DNA from: Allomyces arbusculus
Lineage: Eukaryota > Blastocladiomycota > Blastocladiomycetes > Blastocladiales > Blastocladiaceae
Length of the DNA stretch: 64,000 nt
Assembly: GCA_027604705.1 (NCBI GenBank)
Contig: JADHYV010000031.1
Span: 62,001-126,000 of the forward strand
Reading direction: 5' to 3'
Shown: piece by piece, positions 11,544 through 52,020 of the stretch
Numbering within the stretch: the first letter of the stretch is position 1
Layout: every line of letters starts with the position of its first letter
Notes under the pieces: generated by a model
The model's database searches: none
What the model was told of the DNA's origin: nothing
The model's input: the letters and a program-made list of their open reading frames with translations, nothing else
Made by a program: the position numbers and the translations under genes

Positions 11544-12423
11544 CTAGCTGCGCTTGGCCAGCTCCTTGGCCACAGCGCGCTCAATGTGCGCCTGCAGCAA
11601 ATTTCCGAGCGACGGCTTGTTGCCCTCCGTCGCCGCCTCCTCGGCCTCGGGCGCGCTCTGCAGCATGCCCACGACCACGCGCTCAACGTACTTGCCGAGC
11701 ATGTCGACCTCGACGTTGACTGTATCTCCGACCTTCTTGAGCGGCATGACCACATGCTCTTGTGTGTAGGCGACGAGCATGATCGTGAATGTGCGCGCGG
11801 TATCGTTCACGTCGCAGACGGTCAGGGAGGTGCCGTCGAGCGCAACGTAGCCCTTGGGGATCAGGTACGGCAGGAGCGACCGGTCGGGCAACGTGAATTC
11901 GAACCGCAGAGAGTTGACGTCGGGCGTGATCTTGGAAATGGTCGCGGTGCCGTCGACGTGGCCCTAAAGTGTGGCACGGCGTGATCAGCATAAGTTCCCT
12001 GCACGCGGGTCCCACGGAAGGCATGACTGTACCTGAACAAAGTGCCCACCAAACCGCGTGTGCGAGGCCATGGCGCGCTCGAGGTTCACCTTAGCGCCGA
12101 CTTGCAACTTGCCAAGGTTTGTGCGCTGCAGGGTTTCCGGCGCGAGACCGACCTTGAACGTCGACTCGGTGAATGCCGTCACGGTCAAGCATGTTCCTGG
12201 CGAACAGGGGCGCGCGCTCGACGACCGTCAGATTCGCCCAGGTCATTCATTCAAACTGCAGAGAGCGCGCAAGATGCCTACCGTTGACGGCAATACTGTC
12301 GCCCAAGTGGCAGTCGCTGAGAATGGCCTCGGCGCCGCCAATCGTCATGGTCCAGCCGCCGTCCGTGTCGTGCTCAATGATCTCGGCGACATGACCCATA
12401 ATCTCGACGATGCCCGTGAACAT
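11544..12423 (-). CDS. RIB5: Riboflavin synthase (alpha subunit)
   Basis: Three exons (12423-12282, 12196-12033, 11963-11544) give 241 residues, usual for fungal Rib5. It converts two 6,7-dimethyl-8-ribityllumazines into riboflavin plus a pyrimidinedione. The diagnostic start MFTGIVEIMGHV is present, then CHLGDSIAVNGTCLTVT (lumazine-binding repeat 1), FGGHFVQGHVDGTATI at the repeat boundary, and a second repeat with LIPKGYVALDGTSLTV. All three phases agree and each junction falls inside a conserved block. The C-terminal ~30 residues form the trimerisation helix region (LLQAHIERAVAKEL). It is convergent with USE1 and divergent from GNL3L. Confidence 0.95.
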
Positions 12424-12975
12424 GTTGATGATTGGTGGTGGTGATTGGTATTGTCGGAAGGGATGCAAGTGCGGGGGTGAGCTTGTCGCAACCGATTCGT
12501 CGTGACGCGTTTGAAAGGAGCGCGCGACGGCGGGGGGCGGCGCTGCAGATTTGTATTCTCGACCTGGTCGGGCCAGCGTGGTCACTCGAGCGTGCCCGTC
12601 GTGGTGGGCGGGCCCATGGCGGTTGGATGGCGGAAGATTCGGGGCGGCAGGAACGGCTGTTTGTCAGGGCAGGCAAAGTGATGGTGCGCCCTGGTAATCG
12701 CTGACATGCATTTCATTCTGCACGCGCCTGTTAGTCACTCGCATCAAACCCTGCTTAGCACAGGGGCTGCAACCGGTCAGGTGACTCTGACGCGCAATGA
12801 CCTCCGGCTTTGGCTCTCTTTTCGCGATGGCCAGGAGACGGCAACAAGCAGGACGGCGACAACGACAGGACGACGCGATCGCAGCGACGGGACTCGCAAC
12901 GACGCTCTGACCGCACTTGACCCGGAACCGCATCCATCGCAACCACCACTTTCGATACCACCAACACCAACCACT
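12424..12975. promoter_or_regulatory. Divergent promoter, RIB5 / GNL3L
   Basis: A 552-nt region between two start codons. The half next to GNL3L is rich in ACGACG/ACAACG and CA runs. I found no coding signal and no FMN-riboswitch-like structure. Confidence 0.35.
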
Positions 12976-14880
12976 ATGGGCAAGCGGCAACCGGCCCAGC
13001 AAAAGGCCAAGGCGCTCAACAAGACGCGCGAGGCCGATCGCAAGGCCAAGAAAAAGGACCCGAGCCTGCGGTCCAGTATGTTGCTCCCTGCACGACTCGA
13101 CTCCACCCAAATTTCGCCGACGCTGACCCCTCGCATGTGTGCTTCTGAACAGAGGCGCGCAAGGACCCGGGCATCCCCAATCTGGCGCCGTTCAAGGCCA
13201 AGCTGCTGGCACAGGCCGAGGAATCGCAGGCGCAGCTCGCCGACAACAAGGCGCAACTGCGGCAAAGGCGGCTCGCCATGCAAAAGGCCGCTCTCCGCAC
13301 GGCTGCGGGACACTTTGCCAACGCACCCACGACGGAGGAACCGCAGTGGCAGGAGCAGTCGACCAAGCAGTCGCAGGGCGCCTACTACCGCGAATTCCAG
13401 AAAATCATGGAAAAGGCCGACGTGATCCTGCAAGTGCTCGATGCGCGCGACCCGATTGGCACGCGCGCCGTGCACGTCGAAAAAATGATTCTCGAGTCGG
13501 GTACCGGCAAGCGCGTGATTTTGGTGCTTAACAAGGTGGATCTCGTGCCCAAGGAGAACGTGCAGCAGTGGCTGGCCTATTTGCGGCACGAGTTTCCTAC
13601 GATTGCGTTCAAGGCCAGCACGCAGGCGCAGCGCCGGAATTTGGGGCAGGGGAACGTGCGGATTGAGCACGCGACCGAGGCGATGTTGCAGTCGTCCGAG
13701 TCGATTGGTACGTGCCTTCAATGTGGCTCTGTGCTCGACGTCTGACGTGCCGCCATGCTCACTCGTTCACGAAATTGTAGGCGCGGATATCCTTGTCAAG
13801 CTTCTGAAAAACTACTCGCGCAACCAGGACATCAAGACGTCTGTCACGGTCGGCGTGATCGGGTACCCAAACGTGGGCAAGTCGTCCTTGATCAACTCGC
13901 TGAAACGCGCCAAGGTCTGCGGCATCGGCGCGACCCCTGGGCTCACCAAAGTCGTGCAAGAAATCCACCTTGACAAGAACATCAAGCTGCTCGACTGTCC
14001 CGGCATCGTCTTCTCGCCCGAACGCGCCGACGCGACCTGGCAAGAACGTGCCGCCGTGCAATTGCGCAACTGCATGCGCGTCGAGTCGCTTGCGGATCCG
14101 ATCACCCCCGTCGAACTGATCTTAACCCGTGCCGCGCCCGCGACACTGTGCGTGCTCTACGGGATCCCGCCGTTCAACTCGACCAACGAATTTCTGTTCC
14201 ATGTCGGGAAGGCGCGCGGCAAGTTAAAGCGCGGTGGGGTGCCGGACGTGGAGGACGCGGCGCGCGCCGTACTGAATGACTGGAACCACGGCAAGATCCC
14301 GTACTACTCGGTTCCGCCGAAACGCGACTTGGGTGGTGGCGCCGCGATCGTTGACCAGTTTGCTGACCAGCTTGACTTGGACGCTGGGCTGAACTCGCTC
14401 ATGTCCGAGCAGGAACTGGGCGCTGAGTTTGCGGCGCGACACGCGCAGGGCGGTATGGACGTGAGCGACAACGACGAGGATATGATGGACGATGACGACG
14501 ACGTCATGGACGAGGACGACGACGAGGAGGACAGCGACGACGAGGCACCAAACGACGCGATTGTGGTCCCGGACCTCGCGTCGACCGGGTCGCGCAAGCA
14601 CGCGGCATTGCTGCGTGCCGCGGAGGGCGAGGACGGCGGTGTCGCACCGGGCCGTGCACGAAAGCAGCTGATTATGACCGACGAGGAGGCCGCACTGAAC
14701 CCGCGTACGAACCAGCAGCGGCGCAAGCAGGCCAAGCAGGCGCGCAAGCTCGCGGCCAAGCTCGAGGGCAAGATGAGCGATAACGTGCGTGCGTGGGTGC
14801 AGGGCGATGTCGACATGGACATGGACGAGGCGCCGGCCGAGGCAAATGAGTTTGATTTTGGCGAATTTGCGCGGATATAG
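12976..14880 (+). CDS. GNL3L: GNL3L/Grn1-type nucleolar GTPase (nucleostemin family)
   Basis: Three exons (12976-13075, 13153-13707, 13781-14880) give 584 residues, near human GNL3L. The GTPase is circularly permuted, as in the YlqF/YawG group. DARDP (130-134) and G4 NKVD (160-163) come first, then G1 GYPNVGKS (246-253), G2 TPGLT, and G3 DCPG (290-293). The basic N-terminus (KAKALNKTREADRKAKKK) is the expected nucleolar/RNA-binding coil. The C-terminal third has a strongly acidic Asp/Glu run and a basic QQRRKQAKQARKLAAKLEGK patch. It functions in late nuclear 60S assembly and export. The ATG at 12976 opens the conserved MGKRQ-type start. Introns have GTATGT and GTACGT donors. It lies head-to-tail with cobS, 365 nt upstream. 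Confidence 0.93.
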
Positions 14881-15245: not shown

Positions 15246-16493
15246 ATGGCTCGTAAAAAGACCGGCACCAAGACCAAGTCGACCAGTCCCACAACGGTCC
15301 AGGATGTCGCAGAGCGCCCGGACAGTGCCGTCAGTGCACCTGTCGTCGAGGAGGACCCGTTTGCACCTCCCGTCAAGACCGACCGCGGCGACCTGAACCG
15401 CTATCTCAACGAGCAGATCCCGGACAATGTGCTTGCCGGCATGTCGTTCTGGATGCACGAGTACCAAGCGTTTTTGACGGGCATCATGTTCTTTACGCGG
15501 CTGCCTTGTCCAATGTGGGCACGTACTACCTAAAGCATTGTGATCAAGTGACGAAGCACAAAGCGCTGCTGATCACGTTCCTCACGTACCAGGTCGACCA
15601 CAATCTGTACTGGATCTCGCAAAGCACCGTCTACTTCCCGCTCATTGGTACGAGTGCGCTCCTGCTCTCGCTCCGACTCACTCTCTCCGCTCACCATCCT
15701 GACCCCATCCCTCTCCAGGTGTCATTGTCGGCCTTTTCGGCACGATCGCGTACAAGTTTGCCGCCTTCCTGTGGCACCCAACGATCGGCGTGCTCTTCTC
15801 GACGCTCGCCACCGTCTGGCTGACAGGCGCATTCCACGAAGACGGTGTCGCCGACTGCTTTGACGCGTTTGGCGGCGGGTGGGGTAAAACCGAGATCTTG
15901 CGCATCATGCGCGACTCGCGTCTTGGTACGTACGGGTGCATTGGGCTCGTGCTCGTCCTGGGTGCGAAATTGTCGGGTTTGAACTTGCTCTTGGGCGGAC
16001 TCACGCCCGTGACGACGCCCGTGATGGTCTTGCCCCCAATGGTGCTTGTCGCGGGACACGTCATGTACGTTTTCTCCACCACCATCTTCACGCGCTTCGG
16101 TGCAGTGCTCACGCATCTTGTTGTAGGGGCCGGTGGGCCTGCGTCTACCTCCTTTACGCACACCCGTACATGGACGACGCCGCGCAATCCGCACCGGGCA
16201 AGCACTTTGTCCTGTACGTGACGCCCATCCGGCTCGTGGTCGGGACCGTGACGGCGTTTGCGTTCACGGCGTGGGCGCTGCAGGGGTCCGTGTACCATCT
16301 CGCGCTGGTCTGGGTGCTCGGCACGCTCACGACGATTGCCGCGGGCCGGTACATTGTTTCGATCTTGGACGGCGTGATTGGCGATTCGTTGGGCGCGGCG
16401 AACCAGATTGTGGAAGTGGTCACATACCTCGCGCTCGCGGTGCGGCCGCTGGATGTGGTTGCGGCCGAGTTGGCGGCGGTGGTTGGGCTGTGA
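15246..16493 (+). CDS. cobS: CobS-like adenosylcobinamide-GDP ribazoletransferase (cobalamin synthase)
   Basis: Four inferred exons (15246-15522, 15564-15647, 15719-16064, 16127-16493), 357 residues. CobS is a polytopic membrane enzyme joining alpha-ribazole to adenosylcobinamide-GDP, the last step of nucleotide-loop assembly in B12 synthesis and salvage. After an ~75-residue hydrophilic N-terminal extension come FLTGIMFFTRLPCP, VYFPLIGVIVGLFG, and the signature AFHEDGVADCFDAFGGGWGK followed by IMRDSRLGTYG. Then come hydrophobic helices, GRWACVYLLYAHPYM (restored exactly across the last intron), and the C-terminal ILDGVIGDSLGAANQIVEV. Acidic residues in HEDGxAD and DSxxGTYG fit the Mg-binding sites of the CDP-alcohol-phosphotransferase-like superfamily. 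The 41-nt first intron is uncertain: GT...AG options there differ by a few codons. Three introns and matching GC content argue against bacterial contamination. Confidence 0.88.
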
Positions 16494-19210: not shown

Positions 19211-20611
19211 CTACGCGTCCGTCGGATCCGCGACAGTACACCGCGCACACAAGCTCCCCTGCCGTACGGCGCCATCATTCCAGCACGCCCAGCAGTATCC
19301 GACACCACACCGCGGACAGGCCCAATCTTGATAACACGTGCTACAATTCGCAAGCGCCTTGCGATGCAGTGGGCAATAAAAGTACCCAAGCCCGCCATCA
19401 ACGCGGATAGGGATCATCGTACTTTCATCGAACATGGGTCCACCCGGCTGCGCGTCCGAATTCGCCGCGGCCCACGCGCGCATGGCCGCTAGGGGCACGA
19501 CCAAGGAGGTGGATGACGGCGGTGGCGGGAAATCGACGGGCACCCACGGAAACGCGTGCAGGCGGCACCGCGAGCAGACGCGCGCGAAGAACGCGTCGGT
19601 CGCGCAGGTACTGCAGTCGCAGTTGAGCGAGTCGTCTTCGCACTCGGGACAAATGTCGACGGGTGCGTTGCAGTGCCGGCATGCCAGCGGGCTCGGGATC
19701 ACTTGGTGGCACGGTGTGCACAGTTGCACATCTGGGACTTGGATGCCAGCAGAGCGGAGCGTTGCGGCCAGGTCGGCCGTGAGCACATCGGTCTCGTCGA
19801 GGTAGACGCGCTCGATGCGCGGGAGCGCTGGCTTGTAGGTCGATGCGGCGTAAGTGGTCGCTGCGGGGACGGGCAAAGGGGTCGCGGGTGCGGGCTGTTG
19901 TACGGCGCGTGCGAGCCACGCGAGAAGCCGGTGGCCGACCGACTCAGGCTCGCCACCGTCGACGGGTAGCTGCGCCAGCGACGCGGCCACGTGCACGCCA
20001 GAGCACCGCACAAGCGATACGGCACGGGCGTTTGGGAATGCGCGCACAATGTCGCCCGCCGCGTGGGCGATGGGCGTGTCCGAGAGATTGACGACGGTCA
20101 CGGCCGCTCGCCACGGCGCGTACGCAGTCGCGAGCAGGAACCGCAGTACGCGAAAATCGTAGACCATGTGCGACGGTGAACTGGCAGGCTCGGCAGCCAT
20201 GATCACCAGCGGTGACGGAGGCAGCACCACGTCACGCAGCACGAGTATACGCCATGGAATTCGCGTCCGGAACAGAAGTGCGGCGCGAATGGCGCGACAT
20301 GTCGGCGCGAGAGCGAGTAGTAGCGTGCGCCAGTCGATGTAGCTGCCGATATGTCCGAGCAGCTCACATGGCAGGTCGTCGAGCCTTGGGCGACGCGGCG
20401 GGTGGTGGTGGTGGTGGTGATGATGATGGCGATGATAAGGGTGGTGCTGGTGCTGGTGGTGTGCGGGCGGCGGCAGCGTTGCGGCAAGGGGCGCGCTGAT
20501 AGCGCCGGGCGCGAGCGGGTCCATGGTCAAATGATCGTCGGTGCGGTTCAGTTGGTCAACGTTGACGGGGCACGGTCGAGCGAGGAGGCGGGAGACGGAG
20601 AGAGAGGACAT
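19211..20611 (-). CDS. F-box protein with Cys-rich (zinc-binding-like) C-terminus
   Basis: One open frame of 466 residues from the ATG at 20611; a second ATG at about codon 30 is an alternative start. An N-terminal tract holds nine consecutive His inside a longer His/Gln/Tyr/Arg run. An F-box-like helix pair follows at ~77-112 (LDDLPCELLGHIGSYIDWRT, then LLALAPTCRAIRAALL). The middle part is LRR-like and weak. The C-terminal ~150 residues are packed with Cys/His pairs (CTPCHQV, CRHCNAPVDICPEC, CDCSTC, CSRCRLH, then CSTCYQDWACPRCGVGYCWAC and CARC), suggesting several zinc knuckles. By analogy it could be a substrate receptor of an SCF ubiquitin ligase. I know no named family with this exact combination. 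Confidence 0.72.
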   Translation of the reverse strand: MSSLSVSRLLARPCPVNVDQLNRTDDHLTMDPLAPGAISAPLAATLPPPAHHQHQHHPYHRHHHHHHHHHPPRRPRLDDLPCELLGHIGSYIDWRTLLLALAPTCRAIRAALLFRTRIPWRILVLRDVVLPPSPLVIMAAEPASSPSHMVYDFRVLRFLLATAYAPWRAAVTVVNLSDTPIAHAAGDIVRAFPNARAVSLVRCSGVHVAASLAQLPVDGGEPESVGHRLLAWLARAVQQPAPATPLPVPAATTYAASTYKPALPRIERVYLDETDVLTADLAATLRSAGIQVPDVQLCTPCHQVIPSPLACRHCNAPVDICPECEDDSLNCDCSTCATDAFFARVCSRCRLHAFPWVPVDFPPPPSSTSLVVPLAAMRAWAAANSDAQPGGPMFDESTMIPIRVDGGLGYFYCPLHRKALANCSTCYQDWACPRCGVGYCWACWNDGAVRQGSLCARCTVADPTDA

Positions 20612-21780
20612 GCGACAATCAGTTTACGCCGACGCGTTTGCCTACGTATTCGTCACGACACAATCGACTCGCCACACACTCGCGCGCGTCAGTTGGTGCA
20701 TGCTCCAAAAAACAATTCTTTACGCCATCCACACACTGCAGTCCGGAGCCCCAGGCGGAAGCCAGCGGCTTCTGTGCGCACTTGTTGTGCCGCACGACGT
20801 GGGAAATGTGACTACGTACGAACAACCTCCTCACCGGTTAACTGCTCGCGGCCGGTTGCTCAGTCAGTCGCCTTGGCTTCAAGAGACGACGACCGTGTCG
20901 GGCGAGAGCTGCAGCCCCGGCAGTCGGGGAAAAGATGCCACGGGCGATCAGAGGTGTTGGCGTCGGCGGCGTCGCACGCAGTACGAGTCCAGACGAGGGT
21001 CAAGTACGACCGAGAGCGGGCCGATGAAGGCAGGTGTGCGCGAGCCGAAAGCGTGGCGCAGACCCTGACCATCGTGCTCTGGCGTGCACACCACTTGCGT
21101 GTCGCAACAGCTCACACGAAGCGTGCGTGTGTCGCTAGGACAACTCGGCTGCTGCGGCTTCGAGAATACAGCCAGGTCGCCGCGGCCAGCTGGCGTGAGG
21201 CGGGAGCAGGACGTCCAGCGCGTCGCGGCCAATGACACGATCCAGCTCAGGCGCGTTCCACGTCCGTCGGATCCACTTGCAGCTCGTTGTAATTGAGGAA
21301 ATGTCGGGCAACACGGGTTGGCGAGGCAATAAATATGGATTGCCACAAGTTGTGTTCGGGTTGGATGGTCACTGGTCGCGCGGTGGCCGGTCGTGCAGCA
21401 GCGCGCCAGCCGCAGCAACTGGCGTGTCGGGAAAATGAAGTTGAAATCAGGTCGTGGTCAATCGGGCCGAACGACGACCAGGAGCATCCCCAGTCGGCTC
21501 AGTCCTGCAATCACCTGATCGATGGCCCTGGGGCAGTTTTGACCAAGTCATTCGATTCGCTGCTTCGCTTGACTTTCTCTGTCTTGTGCCGAGACGTCAG
21601 CCTTGTCGCCGCTGTGGTTACTGGCCGCTGCCGTAACTCATCCCCCGCTCCGACCCCGGCACCGAAACTGGCCGCACTCGCCCGTGCACCCTCCGGTGCA
21701 TCTGCTGCTGTTGCTGCCGTCCCGCCGCCCTCGTTCGGCGGGCCGCTCCCCCGCTCGCTCGCCCCGACCGACCCGCCGCC
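20612..21780. promoter_or_regulatory. Divergent promoter region, F-box gene / TFIIB-1
   Basis: A 1.17-kb region with no believable gene. An AATAAATATGG stretch lies near 21330. A CG-rich leader (GCCCCGACCGACCC) sits immediately before the TFIIB-1 ATG. Several open frames cross it, but none shows family motifs. Confidence 0.35.
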
Positions 21781-48157: not shown

Positions 48158-51100
48158 ATGGCGGCCGCCAACAAGGACGCCGGCTCGGGTCAGTAGCACT
48201 CGTTTACCTCGGGATCTGGGCTGCTCGAGGCGGTGACGCTGACCGTGACGCGGCGCACCTAATGTAGCCTCGATTCACTTCCCGACCGAGGAGGAGAAGA
48301 TTCTCGCGCTCTGGGACCAGCTCGACGCCTTCCAGACGTCGGTCAAGCTGTCCGAGGGCCGCCCAGTCTTTTCGTTTTTTGACGGGTACGCGACGCGCGT
48401 CTCGGCTCTCGACAACACGATGCTGCTGTTCTTGCGACTCAGCGACTGACCCGAAACGCTTTCGCACGATCACCATCTAGCCCGCCCTTTGCCACGGGCT
48501 TGCCACACTACGGCCACCTGCTCGCCGGCACCATCAAGGATGTGGTCACTCGTTACGCTCACAACACGGGCCACTACGTCGAGCGCCGTGCCGGGTGGGA
48601 CACGCACGGTCTGCCCGTCGAGCACGAGATCGACAAGGTGCTCAACATCAAGGGCCGCGACGACGTGATGAAGATGGGGATCAAGGCGTATAACGCCGAA
48701 TGCCGCAAGATCGTGATGCGCTACGCCGACGAGTGGCGCACGACTGTGAACCGCATGGGCCGGTGGATCGATTTCGACAACGACTACAAGACGCTCAACC
48801 CGTCGTTCATGGAATCGGTCTGGTGGGTCTTCAAGCAACTGTTTGAAAAGGACCAGGTCTACCGCGGGTTCCGCGTGATGCCCTTCTCGACGGGCTGTAA
48901 CACGCCGGTCGCGAACTTCGAGGCGTCGCAGAATTACAAGGACGTGAATGACCCGTCGGTCGTCGTCACGTTCCCGCTCGTCAACGACGCGAACACGGCG
49001 TTCTTGGCGTGGACGACCACCCCCTGGACGCTGCCGTCCAACTTGGCGCTCTGCGTGCACCCGGACTTCGAGTACGTCAAGATCAAGGACCAAGAGTCGG
49101 GCATGCACTACATCTTGCTCGAGAAGCGGCTCGATTCGATCTACAAGGACCTGAAAAAGGCCAAGTTTACCGTCGTCGAGAAGATCAAGGGTTCGTCGCT
49201 CAAGGGCACCGAGTACGTGCCGCTCTTCGACTACTTCAAGGCCGACTTCCACAAGACTGGTGCGTTCCGTGTGCTCACCGACACGTACGTGACCGACGAT
49301 TCCGGGACCGGTATCGTGCACCAGGCGCCGGCGTTTGGCGAAGACGATCACCGCGTGTGCCTCGCGGCCGGCATCATCACTGAAGAGAACGTGCCGTGCC
49401 CCGTTGACGATTCCGGGATTCTGCGCGCGCCTGTGACCGATTATGCGGGCCAGTACTTCAAGGACGCCGACAAGGCGATTCAAAAGGACTTGAAGGCCCG
49501 CAAGCGGCTGATTCGGCAGTCGACGCTCACGCACTCGTACCCGTTCTGCTGGCGGTCCGACACGCCCCTCATGTACAAGGCCGTGCCGTCGTGGTTTGTG
49601 CGTGTGGCCAACATTCGCGATAAGCTGTGCAAGAACAACTTGCAGTCGCGGTGGGTCCCGCAGTTTGTTCAGGAAAAGCGGTTCCATAACTGGCTTGCCA
49701 ATGCGCGCGACTGGAACGTGTCGCGCAACCGGTACTGGGGCACACCGATCCCGTTGTGGACGAACGCGGATTTCACCGAGGTCGTGTGCATTGGGTCGGT
49801 CGAGGAGTTGCGCAAGTTGTCGGGCGTCAAGGACATTACCGATTTGCACCGCGACTCGATTGACCAGATCACGATCCCGGCCAAGAACGGCAAAGGCGTG
49901 CTGAAGCGCATCGACGAGGTGTTCGACTGCTGGTTCGAGTCGGGTTCGATGCCCTACGCGCAGCAGCACTACCCGTTCGAGAACCAGGCCAAGTTCGAGG
50001 CGTCGTTCCCGGCTAACTTCATTGCCGAAGGCATTGACCAGACTCGCGGGTGGTTCTACACGCTCATGGTGCTCTCGACGCACTTGTTTGACCAGCCGCC
50101 GTTCCAGAACCTGATTGTCTCGGGCCTGATCTTGGCGTCGGACGGCAAGAAAATGTCGAAGCGGCTTAAGAACTACCCGGATCCGAAACATATTCTCGAC
50201 TCGTACGGCGCCGACGCATTGCGGCTCTACCTGATCAACTCGCCCGTGGTCCGGTCCGAGAACTTGGCGTTCAAGGAAGAGGGCGTGCGCGAAGTCGTCT
50301 CGAAAGTGCTCTTGCCGTGGCACAATGTCTTCAAGTTTTTCAGTAACCAGGTGCAGTTGCTGAAGAAGGAGTTCAACGTCGATTTTTCGTACGATGCGCG
50401 CAAGGTCGGGCACACGAACGTCATGGACAAGTGGGTGTTGGCGTCGCTGCAGTCGCTCATCAAGCACGTGCGCACGGAAATGTCCGAGTACCGGCTCTAC
50501 ACGGTCGTGCCGCGCCTGTTGGCGTTTATCGACGACTTGACCAACATGTACGTGCGGTACAACCGCAAGCGGCTCAAGTGCGACGGGGGGCTCGACGACG
50601 GTGTCTCGGCGCTCAACACGCTGTTTGAGGTCCTGCTCACGCTCGCCAAGGTCATGGCCCCGTTCACGCCGTTCATGGCCGAGAACCTCTACCAGACGTT
50701 GAAGACGTTCCTGGTCGAGCCCAAGAAGGGCACCAAGGAGCACACCGAGTTCCAGTCGGTGCACTTCCAGCTGTTCCCGGAAGTCAAGCAAGAGTACTTT
50801 GACGAAGTGATTGAGCGGCAAGTCGCGCGTATGCAGGGCGTGATTGAACTCGGCCGTATCATTCGCGATCGCCGCACGATCGGGCTCAAGACGCCGCTGC
50901 GCGAACTGGTTGTGCTGCATGCCGACCAGGAGTACCTTGCTGACGTGGCCTCGCTCGAACTCTACGTCAAGGAGGAACTGAACGTGCGCACGCTCACGCT
51001 CACGTCCGACGAGGACAAGCATCATGTCGCCTACAAGGCCGAGGCCGACTTCAAGGTGCTTGGCATCAAGCTGCGCAAGGATATGCCGAAGGTCAAGAAC

Positions 51101-51574
51101 GGGCTCGCCAAGGTGTCTTCGGCGGCCGTCAAGGAATTCGCGCGCACGGGCACACTCGTCGTCGAGGGCATTACGCTCGGCGCCGACGACCTCAAGGTGA
51201 TTCGGTACTACGCGGGCACCTCGCCCGACTGGGAGGCGGCCAACGATAAGAACGTGCTGGTGCTCATGGATGTCGGGAAAGACGAGCACTTGGAGCGTGA
51301 GGCCCTTGCGCGCGAAGTGATCAACCGCGTGCAGCGGCTGCGCAAGAAGGCCGGGCTCGTGCCGACGGATAACGTCGATTACTTTTACAAATTCTCCGAG
51401 GACCCGAACAACCAGCTGGTCGAGGCCATGGCTAAAGAGGCCGAGTTCATTGTCAAGACGCTGAAGCGCACGCTGTTGCCCAGCTTCCAGCGCGATCCGA
51501 AGAAGAAGGTGATTGCCGAGGAGGAGCAAGAGGTGAGCGGGAGCAAGTTTGTCTTGTCGCTCGTCTGGGAATAG
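48158..51574 (+). CDS. ILS1: Isoleucyl-tRNA synthetase, cytosolic
   Basis: Three exons (48158-48188, 48268-48385, 48481-51574) give 1080 residues, normal for eukaryotic cytosolic IleRS. The start exon encodes only MAAANKDAGS. Splicing restores [20 protein letters not shown] with the HIGH-type motif HYGH (59-62), split by the second intron at DG. Then come RRAGWDTHGLPVEHEIDK, the editing (CP1) domain with TTPWTLPSNLALCVHPDFEY and DDSGTGIVHQAPAFGEDDHR, and DCWFESGSMPYAQ. The KMSKR loop (DGKKMSKRLKNYPDP) lies near residue 607, followed by the anticodon-binding domain (NMYVRYNRKRLK). No mitochondrial presequence. The gene uses strongly GC-ending codons, as expected for high expression. A long antisense open frame is a by-product of this bias. 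Confidence 0.97.
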
Positions 51575-52020
51575 AGTGTGGGGTCGGCGACGTGGTCGGT
51601 TGTGTCGCTCGCCGGAGCGGCGTCGTCATCGTCGGTTCGCGCGGGTGTGCTGCTCGCCCCGGTAGCGTCGTCGTTGTCGCGCGTGCTGTTCGTTTGCCCT
51701 TGTCGTGTTGCAAATCGTAGCAAATTTATTCGTTTTTTTTGTCGTGCAATCCTTGCGTGTCTCTCTACCCAACCGGCTCGTCCACCTTGGCCCTGCTTGA
51801 AGAATTGTTTGGGAGCACTTTCCAATCTGCAAACCGACGCGACAAATTCCGCTCGTTTTCAAGAGTGGTGTCATCGATCCGACCCGGATCCGGTTCCGAA
51901 GGCAGCAGCGCCGAACCACAGGTGCTGCCAAGTCGTTCAAAAGTCGCGCTGTCGCCCTCGCCAGGCCTCCATTCTCTCGACCGACCGACCGGCCGACCGA
52001 CCTGTCGACCCGCTGCAACC
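51575..52020. promoter_or_regulatory. ILS1 3' end and SDR gene promoter/leader
   Basis: 446 nt between two head-to-tail genes. A short T-rich stretch (TTTATTCGTTTTTTTTGTCG) at about 51724-51743 is a plausible 3'-end signal region. The end (51977-52010) is a GACC-repeat leader (TCGACCGACCGACCGGCCGA and following) just before the ATG at 52021. No gene was seen. Confidence 0.4.

Follow-up and report, generated by a model that had tools for sequence, protein, structure and literature searches.

The closest described systems are algal. According to PMC4850488, CobT activates 5,6-dimethylbenzimidazole (DMB) by making alpha-ribazole phosphate; CobS then joins the activated base to GDP-cobinamide, and the phosphate is removed by CobC. 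Chlamydomonas reinhardtii and Pavlova lutheri, which have all three (COBT, COBS and COBC), remodel pseudocobalamin when supplied with DMB. The article also reports that the algal genomes yielded neither cbiZ nor cbiB, and it makes CobC a weak marker of the algal-type module. Cobamide remodelling in Vibrio cholerae likewise involves CobS (Ma 2020, cited in PMC7733943), with in vitro data described as lacking in parts of PMC8092220. Here we extend eukaryotic CobT and CobS, known from algae, to the fungi. The cobS gene lies at 15246-16493, on the forward strand, of a stretch of 64,000 nucleotides from contig JADHYV010000031.1 (hereafter, the window).

Non-Dikarya fungi have so far been recognised as consumers of vitamin B12 that bacteria make. 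Orlowska 2021 (PMC8085122) reports that every non-Dikarya lineage uses B12 and that blastoclads carry all eight of the enzymes it surveyed. Neither CobS nor CobT belongs to these eight, and both go unnamed in the main text of that article. A 2023 survey of fungal genomes counts cobalamin proteins among the families lost in fungal evolution, and its main text does not mention CobS or CobT (PMC10406608). Our literature search, which covered titles and the starts of abstracts and left most subscription journals uncovered, returned no fungal report of either protein.

The predicted product, of 346 residues, matches the Pfam CobS family (PF02654) with E=5e-42 and 144.8 bits, against a gathering cut-off of 23.2, and covers positions 2-207 of the 207 in the profile. 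This confirms, at the level of gene prediction, that the locus encodes a CobS-family membrane protein in four exons, and bears out the preliminary description of the locus, which had named CobS from the signature HEDGVADCFDAFGGG and the segment IMRDSRLGTYG, both found in exon 3. Like bacterial CobS (adenosylcobinamide-GDP ribazoletransferase), the fungal protein has the full-length domain, hydrophobic segments and two motifs: HxDxxxDxxD in cytoplasmic loop 2 (residues 149-158) and GxxGDxxG in cytoplasmic loop 6 (residues 307-314). Both are present in all 85 rows compared, the fungal protein counted. Mutagenesis of Salmonella CobS showed that both motifs matter (PMC8092220); in the first, replacing any of three Asp residues by Ala abolishes function and replacing His by Ala weakens it. 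The fungal protein thus belongs to the CobS family, and from this membership we infer its exact reaction. It differs from its bacterial counterparts in its introns, in an N-terminal extension of about 69 residues and in a CobT encoded on another contig, as well as in sequence, with 26-36% identity to six aligned bacterial proteins and at most 39% to those of our first tree. Residues 1-85, searched against Pfam, gave no family over cut-off and one match below it (E=0.11). A Dpy-30-like motif considered in the extension (Sdc1, E=0.38) was rejected because Pfam gave only that sub-cut-off match there. Viral contigs scanned with the CobS protein yielded six pattern matches and no relative.

The joined exons (Table 1) form a single open frame ending in TGA. 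The three introns of the preliminary description stand: the frame is kept only when they are removed. Retaining all three adds five stops, and the score against a profile made from 84 bacterial CobS sequences falls from 250.3 to 62.9 bits; retention of intron 2 adds seven stops (47.9 bits) and of intron 3 three stops (190.2 bits). With introns 2 and 3 fixed, we scored against the same profile 11 open models of intron 1 that had GT or GC donors in the interval 15481-15624. The GC-AG model came first at 250.3 bits, while its ten alternatives reached 199.7-231.4, the runner-up (231.4) being a GT-AG model. The GC-AG model also yields FFTRLPCPMWVDHN at the site where the CobS of Ideonella reads FFTRVPVPAWVGWS. 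Because retention adds stops and lowers profile scores, and because the GC-AG model scores best, we consider that frame, splice sites and homology predict the introns well, and that intron 1 is best read as GC-AG. One detail of the preliminary description did not survive: the helix GRWACVYLL, held to be complete only after splicing, is whole within exon 4 in the unspliced sequence, and removal of intron 3 brings it next to the preceding helix (VLVAGHVM).

Table 1. Predicted exons and introns of the fungal cobS gene (positions in the window)
Feature	Coordinates	Strand	Content
CobS exon 1	15246..15518	+	N-terminal extension (up to about residue 69; matches no family above cut-off), then CobS domain start FLTGIMFFTRLPCPMW
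Intron 1	15519..15592	+	predicted; 74 nt, GC-AG, phase 0; GCACGT...TACCAG; best model against bacterial CobS profile
CobS exon 2	15593..15647	+	encodes VDHNLYWISQSTVYFPLIG
Intron 2	15648..15718	+	predicted; 71 nt, GT-AG, phase 1
CobS exon 3	15719..16064	+	HEDGVADCFDAFGGG, HxDxxxDxxD motif (residues 149-158), IMRDSRLGTYG
Intron 3	16065..16126	+	predicted; 62 nt, GT-AG, phase 2; GTACGT...TTGTAG
CobS exon 4	16127..16493	+	GRWACVYLL, GxxGDxxG motif (residues 307-314), TGA stop codon

We searched the contigs of the assembly (25.9 Mb, 197 contigs) in six frames with protein profiles, taking 14 prokaryotic genomes as controls. CobT (PF02277) was found on contig C72, at 19879-21085, in three pieces with E-values of 1.3e-30, 4.7e-21 and 9.4e-11 (109.6, 79.1 and 44.3 bits; Pfam cut-off 22.6). 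The model, picked by eye from several open ones on splice sites and conserved segments, has three exons, two predicted introns (GTACGT...GTGTAG and GTACGA...TTCTTAG) and 377 residues. It matches TIGR03160 with E=4.3e-80, has relatives among CobT proteins of solved structure (1wx1, E=2.6e-37) and shares 37-39% identity with the best 10 of 129 plasmid records. The segments GELGIGNT and LGEGSGA, which we take to have a catalytic role, are conserved. Two B12-dependent enzymes were also found, as the preliminary description had anticipated: the MetH activation domain (4.2e-120), with a MetH piece whose best solved match is methionine synthase 2o2k, and methylmalonyl-CoA mutase (1.3e-212), whose first piece, of 52 residues, is nearest mitochondrial chains. 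MetH and the mutase are likewise features of other non-Dikarya fungi in PMC8085122.

These genes suggest a role that we judge likely: a resident, spliced cobS would act with CobT to rebuild the nucleotide loop of corrinoids that the fungus scavenges from bacteria, swapping the lower ligand so as to give cobalamin. The fungus would take cobamides, together with a base or alpha-ribazole, from bacteria. CobT would turn the scavenged base, for example DMB, into alpha-ribazole phosphate; CobS, as a membrane-embedded cobamide (5'-phosphate) synthase, would couple this to an activated corrinoid, and the cobalamin formed would serve MetH and methylmalonyl-CoA mutase. Three points we infer: the production of these enzymes in active form, the exchange of the lower ligand, and the source of GDP-cobinamide. 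The likeness to the algae lies in CobT and CobS in a eukaryote that uses B12 and in CbiZ and CbiB not found; in the algae of PMC4850488 remodelling was shown, whereas here it is proposed for a fungus-like genome from its genes. The preliminary description's reading of the gene is thus supported, and the remodelling that it suggested stays a proposal. Two of the conditions by which that description could have been refuted, a profile search without a CobS hit and a genome devoid of B12-dependent enzymes, did not come true.

Is this set of genes compatible with remodelling? Several observations weigh against it. The fungal CobS stays below both NCBIfam equivalog cut-offs (192.5 of 273 bits for NF001277, 82 of 110 for TIGR00317), and CobT below that of TIGR03160 (269.4 against 319.3 bits), so that CobS and CobT activity is presumed from membership of the Pfam families, not from equivalog status. 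The fungal CobS lacks the SKxKPI segment, which is exact in three and similar in two of the six aligned bacterial proteins. CobU was not found in the six-frame search of the genome, where 6 of the 14 controls match, and neither was BluB (14 of 14 controls match, three over cut-off); this exon-wise search may miss genes divided into short exons. CobU, which the preliminary description had listed along with CobT, MetH and the mutase as a companion to look for, did not appear, and the usual substrate of CobS has no known maker here; we see no complete bacterial-type pathway. With BluB not found, the base would have to come from outside. The same search did not find CbiB (8 of 14 controls match) or CbiZ (5 of 14, four over cut-off). 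Given the short-exon limit, we regard the absence of CobU, CbiB, CbiZ and BluB as probable, not proven. For MMACHC, another listed companion, there was no match in the genome, and since none of the 14 controls matches either, its absence is not established.

As the search turned up no source of GDP-cobinamide, either CobU would be replaced by an enzyme that is unrelated or was missed, or CobS itself would release the old loop with GMP and add the new one. In this bolder scheme CobS would first run in reverse, cobamide phosphate and GMP giving GDP-cobinamide and the nucleotide of the old base, and then forward with alpha-ribazole phosphate from CobT, a route free of CobU that needs two enzymes. 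CobS acting on complete cobamides would explain why CobU, CbiB and CbiZ were not found. The CobS-dependent remodelling of Vibrio cholerae (Ma 2020, as cited in PMC7733943 and PMC8092220) resembles it in that CobS may act there on complete cobamides; for the fungus this is wholly putative. We judge it rather unlikely that such a bidirectional CobS exchanges ligands on intact cobamides and, in addition, that the module is an old eukaryotic trait of algae, ichthyosporeans, oomycetes and zoosporic fungi lost in most other fungi and animals.

Alternatively, the fungus may only salvage cobinamide, completing incomplete corrinoids through an undetected or non-orthologous enzyme of the CobU/CobY type, with no ligand swap on complete cobamides. 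The bacterial route of cobinamide salvage also ends with CobT and CobS, and CbiZ, the known ligand-removing amidohydrolase, is among the proteins that our genome search did not find. However, neither did it find CbiB or CobU, which turns cobinamide into GDP-cobinamide (no search was aimed at CobY or CbiR). We consider salvage alone improbable.

More doubtful still is a recruitment of CobS and CobT to some other phosphoribosyl or phospho-alcohol transfer, foreign to B12. The long branch of the fungal CobS (2.14), the scores of both proteins under their equivalog cut-offs, the missing SKxKPI segment and the failure to find the upstream enzymes CobU and CbiB all fit such a change of function. Yet both partners are kept, the CobS motifs and the two conserved segments of CobT are intact, and the genome holds two B12-dependent enzymes. 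Moreover, the CobS of Methylibium, whose gene adjoins cobT in its record, lacks SKxKPI too.

For the origin of the gene we built two trees. The bacterial loci were the best 80 of at least 588 confirmed matches. The first tree had 85 rows, namely the fungal protein, 76 of these 80 loci and eight plasmid loci; L020, L042, L049 and L077 had been dropped, the frame at the match start being under 200 residues. By label, 46 rows were Bacteroidota, 28 Pseudomonadota and one Chloroflexota, while ten, including the fungus, were unlabelled; the fungal protein was the sole eukaryotic CobS. Identity to the fungal CobS ran at 31-43% over the best segment among these best 80 of at least 588 loci, and at 28-44% over the matched parts in 30 of 42 plasmid records, among the matches listed. 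The second tree, of 80 rows, was made without L015, L016, L017 and L083 (long branches) and L018 (an incomplete row), other long rows being kept.

A recent horizontal transfer from a single identifiable bacterial group would find its best argument in the first tree, where the fungal CobS, whose terminal branch measures 2.14 changes per site, stands beside one row of Thermochlorobacteriaceae and one, itself long, of Granulosicoccaceae (96, starred). In the second tree it joins the Thermochlorobacteriaceae row, but the program flagged this join as unsafe, as long branches meeting. Identity below 40% and introns already in place also speak against a recent event. Constraining the fungus to the labelled Pseudomonadota rows was rejected (p 0.007) and to the Bacteroidota rows borderline (p 0.0515), in tests that are weak because the groups were chosen with the first tree already known and plasmid rows were treated as outsiders. 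We think a recent transfer very improbable. With a long branch, an unsettled place and a tree holding no other eukaryotic CobS, the gene may stem from an old horizontal transfer or from inheritance from an early eukaryote. Aphanomyces astaci is an oomycete and Sphaeroforma arctica an opisthokont. The top non-algal matches of Chlamydomonas COBT and COBS were in these two species, respectively (Helliwell 2016, PMC4850488), which makes an old origin of CobS and CobT common to eukaryotes conceivable.

The surroundings of cobS are eukaryotic in character. We ran Pfam at E 0.001 on 19 chosen frames of the window (18 of its 41 frames of at least 300 residues, plus one shorter), and eight matched a family: NOL10, BTB, an MMR_HSR1 GTPase, a TFIIB-type factor, a protein kinase, HLH, an isoleucyl-tRNA synthetase closest to eukaryotic cytoplasmic-type chains, and, weakly, a cyclin. 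The GTPase frame ends at 14877, directly upstream of cobS; the frame directly downstream has no Pfam family. Third-position GC is 0.80 in cobS, against 0.76 in the GTPase frame and 0.86 in the synthetase. In agreement with the preliminary description, we read the gene as resident in the genome on its predicted introns, its eukaryotic neighbours and its identity of at most 39% to the 84 bacterial rows of the tree. Bacterial contamination or a chimeric contig, which might be suspected because CobS is elsewhere mainly bacterial and archaeal and because bacterial contaminants are reported among fungal B12 sequences (PMC8085122), we reject on that low identity, on the predicted introns (three in CobS, two in CobT), on a third-position GC lying between those of two window genes, and on the sharing of the window with NOL10, the GTPase, the TFIIB-type factor, the kinase and a cytoplasmic-type synthetase.

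Another locus bears on the nature of the host. Two rhodopsin matches were found in the genome (L099, G000:C7:513850-517500; L100, G000:C15:368392-372036), with none in the 14 prokaryotic controls. L099 combines a rhodopsin and a guanylate-cyclase domain in the same frame, with what seems to be a non-coding or out-of-frame stretch between them. Over 93 residues, its cyclase part matches PDB entries 6sir ('nucleotide cyclase') and 6ao9 ('Bacterio-rhodopsin/guanylyl cyclase 1 fusion protein'). This pairing resembles the light sensor of zoosporic fungi. According to PMC9616733, such fusions occur in Blastocladiomycota, Sanchytriomycota and four chytrid orders, and were not reported from the sampled Dikarya, zygomycetes, Olpidium or aphelid. 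The fusion thus suggests that the genome carrying cobS is that of a zoosporic fungus, most likely a blastocladiomycete.

A fungus endowed with CobS and CobT might be able to draw on pseudocobalamin and other cobamides too, and the pattern of who supplies whom in water and soil would then look different. The finding also gives an edge to a question first posed for algae: by what route do eukaryotes exchange the lower ligand if searches detect neither CbiB nor CbiZ? In the present genome CobU went undetected as well. With a zoosporic fungus that can be cultured, this question could be tested outside algae.

Other features of the window are of less certain meaning. Rfam and tRNA scans of the window found nothing. 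A short frame on the reverse strand (12250-12663), with no Pfam family at E 0.001, contains MFTGIVEIMGHVAEI, which resembles the start of riboflavin synthase. Also on the reverse strand, a cysteine-rich frame of 470 residues at 19214-20623 (CTPCHQVIPSPLACRHC...) has no Pfam family at the same threshold. Finally, a reverse-strand frame of 1051 residues (48470-51625), for which no Pfam family was found, runs antisense to the isoleucyl-tRNA synthetase gene and is probably a by-product of high GC content.
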